From contig JADHSL010000009.1 in assembly GCA_016776925.1 (NCBI GenBank), positions 1-64,000 of the forward strand: a DNA stretch of 64,000 nt. Reading direction: 5' to 3'. The notes below the pieces were generated by a model. The model was not told the DNA's origin. It did not search any database and saw nothing but the letters and a program-made list of their open reading frames with translations. The position numbers and the translations under genes were made by a program. Positions 55,363 through 59,753 of this stretch are shown here, one piece after another (within the stretch, counting starts at the first letter, position 1; each line of letters opens with the position of its first letter). The stretch is from Pirellulales bacterium. Lineage in GTDB: Bacteria > Planctomycetota > Planctomycetia > Pirellulales > UBA1268.

Positions 55363-56496
55363 TTAGGCCGTGACGATTGCTTCGCCACTCTCCCAGAGAT
55401 GCCCGTTTCGATCCACACGGCGATATAGCGTGTCTCTTTCGATCGGTTCTCTTCCTGCTTCTCGAATTAGATTCTTAATTTTGTCTACAGTGAGGATTTC
55501 AGGTGTCTCGGCCCCGGCATCGTGGTAGATCAATTCATGCCGCACAGTACCGTCGATATCATCTGCACCGTATGCAAGTGCTGTTTGGGCCGTGCCCAAC
55601 CCCAGCATGATCCAATACGCTTTCATGTGGTCGAAGTTGTCGAGCACAAGCCGGCTTATAGCCATTGTTCTGAGGCTCATTGCAGCTGATGGCTTTGGGA
55701 TATGGGATAGTCGCGTGTTGTCTGGGTGGAAAGCCAGAGGGATAAAGGTTTGGAAACCACCAGTTTCATCTTGAAGGTCCCGCAAGCGAATTAAATGATC
55801 TGTGCGGTGGTAGGCATTTTCTAAACTTCCATAGAGCATTGTTGCGTTGGATCGTAAGCCTAAGGAATGTGCGATTCGATGAATCTCAAACCACTCTTTA
55901 GTGTCAGCTTTATGCTCACAAATTTTACTTCTTACTTCGGGATGAAAGATTTCAGCACCTCCACCCGGGAGACTTCCTAGCCCAGCCGACTTCATCTCAC
56001 TCAGAATATCCTTAATGGAACGCTTCGTAAGGTGGCAGAACCAATTGATTTCAACAGGCGTCCATGCTTTTAAATGAAGTGAGGGGTAAGTCTCGTGCAA
56101 GATTTGGATGATGTTGAGGTATGCATCGTACTTTTTTTGGTGATGCAATCCGCCAACGATATGCATTTCGGTACTCCCTGCATCAACAGCTTCCTGCCCT
56201 CGCTGAAGAATTTGTTCGTCTGTCATCCAGTAACCGCGATCGTCTCTTAAATCTGCCCGAAAAGCACAAAAAGAACAACGGTACACGCAAACATTCGTCG
56301 GATTAAGATGTGTGTTGATGTTGTAGTAGCCAGCATCTCCATTTTTTCGTTCCCGCACAAGGTTTGCGAGTTCACCAAGTTCATGAAGATCGACAGAATC
56401 ATCCCAAAGGCTCTCGGACTCTTTGGACGACAATCGCTCACCGCAGACTACTTTTTCACGAATTGAATCAAGTGATCGTTGCACTGCAGATATCAT
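55363..56496 (-). CDS. mqnE: Aminodeoxyfutalosine synthase
   Basis: A radical SAM enzyme of the futalosine menaquinone pathway that joins the adenosine part to a chorismate-derived acid. The cluster motif CVYRCSFCAF is at about residues 71-80, and GSTEMHIVGGLHH and GSLPGGGAEIF are characteristic of MqnE/MqnC relatives. Length (377) and the YWIMLGLGTAQTALAYGADDIDGTV segment fit MqnE. It is last in a minus-strand group with mqnP, ubiX and menG. Other futalosine genes (mqnA, B, C, D) are not in the window. Confidence 0.93.
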   Translation of the reverse strand: MISAVQRSLDSIREKVVCGERLSSKESESLWDDSVDLHELGELANLVRERKNGDAGYYNINTHLNPTNVCVYRCSFCAFRADLRDDRGYWMTDEQILQRGQEAVDAGSTEMHIVGGLHHQKKYDAYLNIIQILHETYPSLHLKAWTPVEINWFCHLTKRSIKDILSEMKSAGLGSLPGGGAEIFHPEVRSKICEHKADTKEWFEIHRIAHSLGLRSNATMLYGSLENAYHRTDHLIRLRDLQDETGGFQTFIPLAFHPDNTRLSHIPKPSAAMSLRTMAISRLVLDNFDHMKAYWIMLGLGTAQTALAYGADDIDGTVRHELIYHDAGAETPEILTVDKIKNLIREAGREPIERDTLYRRVDRNGHLWESGEAIVTA

Positions 56497-56573: not shown

Positions 56574-57506
56574 TTACGCCAACCAGAGATCGGCACTGAT
56601 TCCTGCGAGGAGGACAAGGCCAATCACGGCATTTACCGTGAAAAAGGCCTGATTTATACGAGAAAGGTCTCGTGAACTCACTAGAAGGTGTTCAACAACA
56701 AGCAGGACTGCAATCCCGCAGACGGTCGATGTGGTGTAGATGCCAACAAGAGGGGTTGTTTGTGGAAGTGCCAAGAGGGCCACAGTTGCCAGCAGATGAA
56801 AAAAACCGGAGATGTAAAGCGCCCCTTTTATGCCGAAGCGAGCGGGAAGGCTTTGTAGGTGTTCGTTGCTGTCAAATGCAGCATCTTGACACGCGTAAAT
56901 TGTGTCGAAGCCAGCAACCCAGGCAGTAACAGCTAAGGCCAGAACACATGCAGGGACGATGTCTGAAGGATTTGAAAGTACTGCAGGGCCACGGACGGCA
57001 ATCCAGGCAGCGAGTGGAGTCAGGCCAAGTGCTGTACCAAGCCAAACGTGCGCAAATGGTGTAAATCGTTTTGCATAGCTATATCCCAAGAGCCAGGCTA
57101 ACACTGGCAAGGAGAGAGTTGCTGGCAACCAGTTTGGAAGAAACAGCAAAGTTGATCCTATGAATAGAACTGATGATGAATAGACCAGTCTTTGAACGTC
57201 ACTCACGGAAAGGAGGCCTTTTGGCAGATGCCGATCCGCAGTGCGTGGGTTGCGGGCATCTATTTCCCTATCAACGAGGCGATTGAATGCCATTGCCGCC
57301 GTGCGGGCCGTAGCCATGCAGACAACGATACCAATCGCAAGTTTCAGCCAGTGGAATGCTGAGAGTTGTGGGTTCTCAGCTACTTCAATGCGGGCCGCAA
57401 TCATACCCGACATAATTGCGAAAGGCATCGCAAAAATTGTATGTGAGAATCGAACGAGCTCGAGGTACGAGCGAAGTGTCGCCGCCATAGATTTCAATGT
57501 CCCCAA
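56574..57506 (-). CDS. mqnP: UbiA-type prenyltransferase (menaquinone, MqnP-like)
   Basis: A 310-residue integral membrane enzyme that attaches a polyprenyl chain to the menaquinone ring precursor. It has about eight hydrophobic helices, the first Asp-rich motif NRLVDREIDARNPRTADRHLP (the NxxxD type), and the second one near DTIYACQDAAFDSNEH. Size and motif order match the 4-hydroxybenzoate/MqnP polyprenyltransferase group. Its start overlaps the ubiX stop by 13 bp; an internal ATG at 57488 (MAATLRSYLEL) is an alternative. mqnE follows after 77 bp. Confidence 0.92.
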   Translation of the reverse strand: MGTLKSMAATLRSYLELVRFSHTIFAMPFAIMSGMIAARIEVAENPQLSAFHWLKLAIGIVVCMATARTAAMAFNRLVDREIDARNPRTADRHLPKGLLSVSDVQRLVYSSSVLFIGSTLLFLPNWLPATLSLPVLAWLLGYSYAKRFTPFAHVWLGTALGLTPLAAWIAVRGPAVLSNPSDIVPACVLALAVTAWVAGFDTIYACQDAAFDSNEHLQSLPARFGIKGALYISGFFHLLATVALLALPQTTPLVGIYTTSTVCGIAVLLVVEHLLVSSRDLSRINQAFFTVNAVIGLVLLAGISADLWLA

Positions 57507-58105
57507 CGGCTGACAAGTTTGTTGGCAATGTTTAGTTGGTCACAAATACGAGCGACAACAAAATTGACAAGATCATCGATGGTTTTCGCATTGTGATAGA
57601 AGCCAGGCGAAGCGGGCAAGACGACGGCTCCGGCTTCATGAATGGACTGCATGTTTTTCAGTTGAGGGAGCGAAAGGGGGCTCTCTCGTGGCACGACAAT
57701 AAGTTTTCGGCGTTCCTTCAGATGCACCTCAGCTGCTCGGTGAATAAGGTTGTCACCCATTGCATGAGTAACAGCGGCGAGCGTACTTCCGCTACATGGG
57801 CAAATCACCATTGCGCTTGTCAGGAACGAACCACTCGCAATCGGTGCCATGAGGTTTTTGTAATGATGGTAGGTGAGGCGACCAGACTGGGGCGTCGCAG
57901 TTCCGAGGAATTGCTCAGTGGAAAAATCATCAAGACCGAGTGACTCGCCGAGCTCCTGCTCAAACACTGCTTTTCCCGAAGGACTCACTGATAGATGTAC
58001 GTCGCAGTTCGCATCAAGAAGCACGTGAAGGAGCCTGCGTGAATAAATCGCTCCTGAGGCACCGGTAACCCCTAATACGATAGGGTGGTGAGAAGTAGTG
58101 CTCAT
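57494..58105 (-). CDS. ubiX: Flavin prenyltransferase UbiX
   Basis: Makes prenylated FMN, the cofactor of UbiD-type decarboxylases such as the one used in menaquinone synthesis. The 203-residue flavoprotein has GVTGASGAIYSRRLL, LAPIASGSF-type LMAPIASGSFLTSAMVICPCSG, and ERRKLIVVPRESPLSL, all family signatures, and ends normally. The ATG overlaps the menG stop as ATGA (58102-58105). No ubiD/mqnL gene is present in the window. Confidence 0.95.
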   Translation of the reverse strand: MSTTSHHPIVLGVTGASGAIYSRRLLHVLLDANCDVHLSVSPSGKAVFEQELGESLGLDDFSTEQFLGTATPQSGRLTYHHYKNLMAPIASGSFLTSAMVICPCSGSTLAAVTHAMGDNLIHRAAEVHLKERRKLIVVPRESPLSLPQLKNMQSIHEAGAVVLPASPGFYHNAKTIDDLVNFVVARICDQLNIANKLVSRWGH

Positions 58106-58860
58106 GCGTCGGTAATCTCCTGCTGTGCAGAAACTTCTGTTTTTGTTGCGATTGAAAGCGTAGCTATTCCGAGCGTGAGAGGAAACTGATCAACACGGTC
58201 AAAGCCAGCTTTCTTTATAAGCGTAGCAAGAGCCTCGCCGGACGGAAACTCTTCGACGCTCTGGTTCAGGTAGGTGTAGGCGTCGGAATGGTTGTGGGCA
58301 ATCATGTTTCCAATTCTCGGCAGGACGTTCCGGAAATACCATAAATAGCTTTTTCGAATAAATAGATTTTTTGGTAATGAGAATTCAAGAATCGCCAGGC
58401 GGCCTCCCGGCTTGCATACACGAGCCATTTCAGCGAGGCCACGATCGGTCTCAGCAATGTTGCGTAATCCAAAAGCAACCGTCACAAGATCGAATGCTGC
58501 ATCCGGGAATGGCAGGTTCATGGCATCAGCTTCAATCCATTCAACGGGCACATTGCGTGCCGCAGACTTTTCGATTCCACGGTCAAGCATTGGTTTACAG
58601 AAATCACTACCGACCACACGGACCTGCGAAGATACTTTCGCGGCGTATGTCAGTGCCAGGTCACCTGTTCCGGTACACACATCTAATATGGCTCCTTCTG
58701 AAGGCGGGGCCGCACGCTTGACAGTTATTCTTCGCCACCACGTATCAATCCCGCCCGACAGCATTCGGTTGACAAAGTCGTACCGTGGGGCAATCTCAGC
58801 AAACATCCCTTGGACTTTACCACCGCTCTTGTCAACACTTTGGATTGCTTGGCTCGTAAT
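58102..58860 (-). CDS. menG: Demethylmenaquinone methyltransferase, probable AUU start
   Basis: A UbiE/MenG SAM methyltransferase that performs the last step of menaquinone synthesis. Motifs are APRYDFVNRMLSGG, the SAM loop ILDVCTGTGDLALTYA, VVGSDFCKPMLDRG, and the post-motif VTVAFGLRN. The first ATG (58806) starts at MFAEIAPRYD, but the frame stays open upstream and encodes VDKSGGKVQG, which resembles the conserved N-terminus of the family. No ATG, GTG or TTG occurs there. A perfect GGAGGT lies 6 bases before an ATT at 58860, so I infer translation starts at ATT (about 252 residues); the conventional call is 58806. It is first in the menaquinone operon. Confidence 0.93.
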   Translation of the reverse strand: MTSQAIQSVDKSGGKVQGMFAEIAPRYDFVNRMLSGGIDTWWRRITVKRAAPPSEGAILDVCTGTGDLALTYAAKVSSQVRVVGSDFCKPMLDRGIEKSAARNVPVEWIEADAMNLPFPDAAFDLVTVAFGLRNIAETDRGLAEMARVCKPGGRLAILEFSLPKNLFIRKSYLWYFRNVLPRIGNMIAHNHSDAYTYLNQSVEEFPSGEALATLIKKAGFDRVDQFPLTLGIATLSIATKTEVSAQQEITDA

Positions 58861-58866
58861 AGCATC

Positions 58867-58872
58867 ACCTCC
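58867..58872 (-). promoter_or_regulatory. Shine-Dalgarno before a probable ATT start of menG
   Basis: GGAGGT on the minus strand, spaced 6 bases from the ATT at 58858-58860, is one of the strongest ribosome sites in the window. The nearby out-of-frame ATG (58863-58865) is only one base away from it and would give a different frame. Confidence 0.6.
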
Positions 58873-58934
58873 GCAGGTAGGATGTTGGAATTGTGTCCAG
58901 CAGACTCGTTACCGATTTGGTCAAATCAACCAGC

Positions 58935-59753
58935 ATGAACAATAAAGCAGGCCACTCAAAACAGACCATTCGGTGGTATACCCATTGCCTCCCAGATGAT
59001 ATGCCCCGAGAGTCGGTAGCGGGAGGCATTGCGATTATTGTCGATGTTCTGAGGGCATCTACAACGATTGTGACAGCTCTTGAAGCGGGAGCGGTCTTTG
59101 TGAAACCGGTGGTCGAAGTCGAAGAGGCTCGTCGCCTAAGAAGCAGTTCTGATGAGTCTTGCCTTCTCGGTGGAGAACGCGAGGGTGTTCAGATTCCTGG
59201 TTTTGATCTCGGAAATTCACCGGCTGAATATTGCCGTTCGGTTGTCAAAGGTCGTGGCATTTTTATGACAACGACGAATGGAACGCTTGCGATTGAGCGA
59301 TGTTTCGAAGCGGAGGCGGTTCTTGTCGGGAGTTTTTTGAATCGAATCTCTGTCGCAAGGGAGGCTGTTCGTCTGGCGTCGGACCGAGATGTTGACGCAA
59401 TTCATCTCGTATGTGCCGGGACGAATGGTCACGAAACAGAAGAAGATTTTCTTGGTGCAGGAGCGATCATTCATGCGGGCTTGTCAGAATCAGGGAGAGA
59501 CCATTTGCTCGATTCAAAAAGCAAAAAGGCGTCATCAGAGTTTTTTCGTATAGTGAATGGTTCGAATGATACTCAGAGTCAGCTCGTTGCGAGTTTTCGT
59601 CAGTCGCTGGGTGGAAGAAATTTAATAGAGCTAGGGATGGATTCCGACCTTGTTCTTGCGGCAGCTATGGATCAATGCTGCCTCGTGCCGTACCTGTGCC
59701 CGAAGACTGGCCGCCTTGTGTCGTTTGATGCCCTGCAGTGCATCAGGAAATAA
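58935..59753 (+). CDS. comB: 2-phosphosulfolactate phosphatase-like ComB
   Basis: A 272-residue Mg-dependent phosphatase family member. In methanogens ComB dephosphorylates 2-phosphosulfolactate on the way to coenzyme M; bacterial homologues occur without the rest of that pathway. Motifs seen are AIIVDVLRASTTIVTALEAGA, LLGGEREGVQIPGFDLGNSPAEY and GIFMTTTNGTLAIERC, all typical. No comA, comC or sulfopyruvate decarboxylase lies in the window. I chose the ATG at 58935; the ORF track begins 14 codons earlier. It is divergent from menG. Confidence 0.9.
   Translation: MNNKAGHSKQTIRWYTHCLPDDMPRESVAGGIAIIVDVLRASTTIVTALEAGAVFVKPVVEVEEARRLRSSSDESCLLGGEREGVQIPGFDLGNSPAEYCRSVVKGRGIFMTTTNGTLAIERCFEAEAVLVGSFLNRISVAREAVRLASDRDVDAIHLVCAGTNGHETEEDFLGAGAIIHAGLSESGRDHLLDSKSKKASSEFFRIVNGSNDTQSQLVASFRQSLGGRNLIELGMDSDLVLAAAMDQCCLVPYLCPKTGRLVSFDALQCIRK

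Follow-up and report, generated by a model that had tools for sequence, protein, structure and literature searches.

A conserved AUU or AUC codon as the probable translation start of menG in a genus of Pirellulales

The menG gene in a stretch of 64,000 nucleotides from a Pirellulales bacterium (contig JADHSL010000009.1, the whole stretch that was analysed, termed the window) is very probably translated from an AUU codon behind a strong Shine-Dalgarno (SD) sequence, and comparison with related genomes suggests that this start, with AUC instead of AUU in some genomes, is used throughout the genus. An AUU start had been proposed in a preliminary description of the window. The proposal was upheld by a comparison of the ten genomes that represent the genus: each has an AUY codon at this site behind a conserved SD, the N-terminus is coding, and most of the genomes lack an alternative start.

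Results

The menG locus and its start region

The menG product was identified as a UbiE/MenG methyltransferase by a full-length match to the NCBIfam profile TIGR01934 (254.9 bits, E 5e-76, cut-off 158) and by a match of 215 bits to Pfam PF01209. The gene heads the run menG-ubiX-ubiA/mqnP-mqnE (Table 1), in which the ubiX ATG overlaps the menG stop (ATGA), an overlap that is kept in most of the genus. For the divergent comB-like gene the longest open reading frame (ORF) was called from GTG 58893. The extension 58893-58934 is unconserved outside the closest relatives, and the comB matches in most relatives begin at codon 12-15 or later; ATG 58935 is likely to be the comB start rather than GTG 58893.

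Table 1. Positions of the menG start signals and of the neighbouring genes in the window.
Feature	Position	Strand	Basis
menG/ubiE coding sequence from the putative AUU start, 252 aa, fMet-TSQAIQSVDKSGGKVQGMFAEIAPRYD...	58102..58860	minus	TIGR01934, PF01209, translation
Putative start codon ATT (AUU) of menG	58858..58860	minus	ATT/ATC in 10/10 genus genomes
Shine-Dalgarno GGAGGT of menG, 6-nt spacer to ATT	58867..58872	minus	GGAG in 10/10; 16S 3' end CCTCCTTTCT
In-frame TAA stop 5' of menG	58909..58911	minus	no ATG/GTG/TTG from there to 58806
First in-frame ATG of menG, Met of the conserved MF..IA..YD	58804..58806	minus	VDKSGGKVQG adjoining upstream, pN/pS <=0.16
ubiX, flavin prenyltransferase	57494..58105	minus	TIGR00421/NF004685
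ubiA-like/mqnP prenyltransferase	56574..57506	minus	TIGR01475, 265 bits
mqnE, aminofutalosine synthase, futalosine menaquinone pathway	55363..56496	minus	TIGR03700, 500 bits, above cut-off
comB-like 2-phosphosulfolactate phosphatase, divergent from menG	58935..59753	plus	PF04029, 207 bits

On the minus strand, the codons ACC TGC are followed by GGA GGT, by GAT GCT and by the ATT, from which the menG frame continues with ACG AGC CAA GCA ATC CAA AGT GTT GAC AAG AGC GGT GGT AAA GTC CAA GGG to ATG TTT. Re-reading of the sequence confirmed the arrangement described earlier, i.e., GGAGGT, six bases (GATGCT) and an in-frame ATT, and the frame was indeed open back to the upstream TAA and devoid of ATG, GTG and TTG. 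The 18 codons from the ATT to the first ATG had been described as encoding VDKSGGKVQG. This block is present, but it comprises only the last ten codons, and the full product is (I/M)TSQAIQS-VDKSGGKVQG.

The 16S rRNA of the window genome ends with ...GGATCACCTCCTTTCT and thus contains the anti-SD CCTCC, and therefore the GGAGGT of menG is a true SD match within the same genome; its 6-nt distance to the ATT falls in the 5-9 nt range taken for a strong SD. This perfect SD is conspicuous within the window, where just 14 of the 54 ORFs carry an SD-like tetramer ahead of the first canonical start.

The chance level of the pattern was determined in the window and 20 further stretches of its genome, which together cover 348 kb (about 11%) and contain 249 ORFs. 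An SD-like tetramer together with ATT, ATC or ATA upstream of the first canonical start was found at 12 of the 249 ORFs; most of these lie within three codons of the canonical start, while four lie at least six codons upstream. Among the 54 window ORFs menG was the sole case. Since 12 ORFs exhibit an arrangement of this kind, its occurrence at menG in a single genome proves little and is, taken alone, weak and suggestive evidence; the evidence for an AUU start of menG is strong because the pattern is conserved over ten genomes. Genome-wide use of AUY starts was considered and rejected, as the 249 ORFs (348 kb) did not contain a second convincing case.

Comparison within the genus

The comparison set comprised 58 distinct menG loci of the family, obtained from searches of genus, family and GTDB contigs. 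The genus of the window was represented by ten genomes, mostly metagenome assemblies, and forms a single clade with a support of 99/99. The preliminary description had named retention of the ATT in relatives as a check: exactly 18 codons before the conserved MF, seven of the ten genomes have ATT and the other three have ATC. GGAG is located at -12 (seven genomes) or -9 (three genomes) from the AUY, again in 10/10, and the adjacent bases vary. ATT and ATC have been exchanged at least once within the genus, and the swaps were confined to weak codons; the single T-to-G or C-to-G change that would yield ATG at this position was not seen in any of the ten genomes. No strong MenG match was obtained in 12 of 72 family genomes (G012, G022, G033, G062 and others), including five of the 34 best assemblies, which may reflect either gene loss or assembly gaps.

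Seven of the ten genus genomes lack an in-frame ATG, GTG or TTG within 45 codons, and in five (the window, L033, L036, L037 and L010) the frame is free of these codons all the way to the stop. This stop is only 10-11 codons 5' of the ATT in L036 and L037, and thus the menG start must be downstream of it. L035, L038 and L039 contain an in-frame ATG or GTG 7-21 codons 5' of the AUY, which could be used as start there. These upstream codons, as well as the internal position of the homologous Ile codon behind an ATG or GTG outside the genus, would be in accordance with the ATT being an internal Ile codon and translation starting at an upstream canonical codon or at ATG 58806. This explanation is unlikely, because it is opposed by the missing canonical start in the window and four other genomes, by the GGAG at SD distance from the AUY in 10/10 genomes, and by protein-level constraint on the stretch preceding 58806.

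The pN/pS value of VDKSGGKVQG was 0.00-0.16 in the subclades and 0.15 genus-wide, which resembles the menG body. This strong constraint at the protein level indicates that translation begins upstream of the block, and therefore ATG 58806 is not the main menG start. For the seven codons from the AUY to VDK values of 0.43-0.57 were found across subclades, compared to 0.55-0.71 for the stretch upstream of the AUY. Constraint alone can thus not position the start at the AUY, because the codons following it are only weakly constrained, barely below the upstream stretch. The exact position is based instead on the SD, the absence of alternative starts and the conserved codon.

An assembly error or a frameshift would turn the out-of-frame ATG 58865, which is found immediately behind the SD (GGAGGTGATG), into the true start. 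The probability of such an error is negligible: this ATG is just 0-2 nt away from the SD and missing in the ATC genomes, and the same in-frame layout is present across ten separately assembled genomes. The ten-genome comparison already contradicts such an error. A conserved mRNA structure masking the SD or the start was rejected, because accessibility was patternless across the ten genomes.

The homologous site outside the genus

All 48 family loci outside the genus have a canonical in-frame start within 45 codons. Many of them carry ACC/ACG-ATA at the homologous site, where the comB strand reads TA[TA][CG]GT. In 21 non-redundant loci T-N-G-N-C-N was found 17 bp from TA[TA][CG]GT on the comB strand, and at this offset the mean match to TTGACA was 3.76 of 6, versus 0.4-1.8 at other offsets. 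The -35 overlies the VDK codons at the shortest linkers and is also present where the linker is longer. Within the outside-genus menG bodies, ATA represents only 3 of 480 Ile codons. The ATA outside the genus is best explained as a putative -10 element of the divergent comB, rather than as a start. AUA as a family-wide menG start was rejected, because 48/48 loci have a canonical start and the ATA fits a comB -10 with a -35 located 17 bp off. An upstream ORF ending with TAG over the ATA, followed by re-initiation, was also rejected, as the cases inspected by hand had no start between the previous stop and the TAG.

Outside the genus, the likely start codons of menG and comB are often just about 17-25 bp apart, and in several loci (L012, L044, L046, L047, L049, L126 and others) the comB promoter is apparently situated within the 5' part of the menG coding sequence.

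The codon of the genus might likewise be conserved as DNA, i.e., as an AT-rich triplet of a comB -10 element on the other strand. Outside the genus the -10 element is the better account, given the motif pair of the 21 loci and the rarity of ATA. Within the genus, however, hand inspection revealed no -35/-10 pair of that kind at the ATT or ATC, a scan of the window yielded no sigma-70-like site, and comB starts farther off, at about 74 nt or more, so that this explanation is very improbable for the AUY codon.

The start region of infC

The gene for initiation factor 3 (IF3), infC, was detected in 8 of the 10 genus genomes and in 68 of the 72 family genomes. The infC start regions that were read (loci L154-L183, including the own copy L160) have the form GGAG-N8/9-ATC-GAG-AAR-CAG, with ATA in one case (L176). 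In L168, L170, L173, L179 and L182 an in-frame stop is located two codons upstream of the ATC, and thus there is no alternative infC start in these five genomes. As infC begins with AUC or AUA behind GGAG, weak starts of the IF3 type are used in these bacteria.

Discussion

The comparison of genomes argues for the AUY start position, the lack of alternatives, the conserved SD, the translated N-terminus and an AUC start of infC in the same cells, while low menG output, IF3 sensitivity and coupling to ubiX are features that we infer. In the proposed mechanism, the strong SD would select the AUU or AUC for initiation, the formyl-methionyl initiator tRNA would mispair with it at the third base, and the resulting initiation complex would be disfavoured by IF3. 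The strong SD would partly offset the weak codon, the output of menG and of the overlapping downstream ubiX would be kept low, and evolution would have maintained the start as a weak one. It has been described that IF3 disfavours initiator tRNA at codons other than AUG, GUG and UUG, and that known genes with such starts are accompanied by a strong SD (PMC5472188; PMC13009471). Switches to AUU were found for 1 of 61,358 AUG starts and 1 of 5,080 GUG starts in 36 genome groups (PMC5622118). Gene finders restricted to ATG, GTG and TTG would truncate the conserved MenG N-terminus, because they are unable to call AUU or AUC.

The infC gene of E. coli starts with AUU, and E. coli pcnB has an AUU start that reportedly limits translation. 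The pcnB work (Binns and Masters 2002) appears as a cited title in PMC13009471 and PMC5601948. Like menG, pcnB is a non-infC gene with AUU, and it differs in function and phylum. The infC start is AUC in Streptomyces (PMC5472188) and AUA in S. aureus (PMC13009471). infC and menG have in common a non-AUG start of the AUN type and an SD at normal distance, and the infC of menG's own family has AUC; in contrast to infC, menG does not encode IF3 and thus there would be no autoregulatory loop. The sigR gene has a GTC start, and its repression by IF3 was found by experiment. It resembles menG in its strong SD (AGGAGGTG in sigR), in its conserved non-canonical codon, which also has a minority variant (32 GTC and 2 GTT, compared to 7 ATT and 3 ATC for menG), and in heading a coupled pair. 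In contrast to menG, sigR has mismatches at the first and the third base, and its repression is experimentally established (PMC5472188). In S. aureus, cvfC1 (AUU) and ccpN (AUA) have conserved starts with an extended SD and reach about 10% of the level of AUG. They share the conserved non-canonical AUN start with menG, and cvfC1 heads an operon; they were characterized with retapamulin profiling and reporters (PMC13009471), whereas the evidence for menG is comparative. The best reading is that menG probably joins infC, pcnB, sigR, cvfC1 and ccpN as a gene with a conserved weak start.

It is tempting to speculate that the AUU acts as a sensor, as had been suggested earlier, so that menG translation would go up when free IF3 per ribosome drops and menaquinone would track the translation apparatus. 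This possibility is tentative. The infC of the same genus has AUC behind GGAG, the anatomy of IF3 autoregulation, and the repression of sigR by IF3 acts via its GTC start (PMC5472188). On the other hand, no physiological link between IF3 and menaquinone is known, the output of the AUU gene cvfC1 of S. aureus was unchanged by the medium (PMC13009471), and a constant weak start accounts for the same sequence facts and is at least as likely as IF3 sensing. A more far-reaching version, a quinone operon under IF3 surveillance with co-varying menaquinone and IF3, and a start that possibly arose from an internal Ile codon (comB -10 in relatives), is rather doubtful. If true, menG would be another IF3-sensing target beyond the translation machinery.

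Conserved AUU or AUC starts other than that of infC are few. With a weak start of menG that has probably been maintained throughout the genus, a metabolic gene and infC would share a start type across these genomes, and they may thus offer a natural test of whether discrimination by IF3 sets the expression of an ordinary gene.
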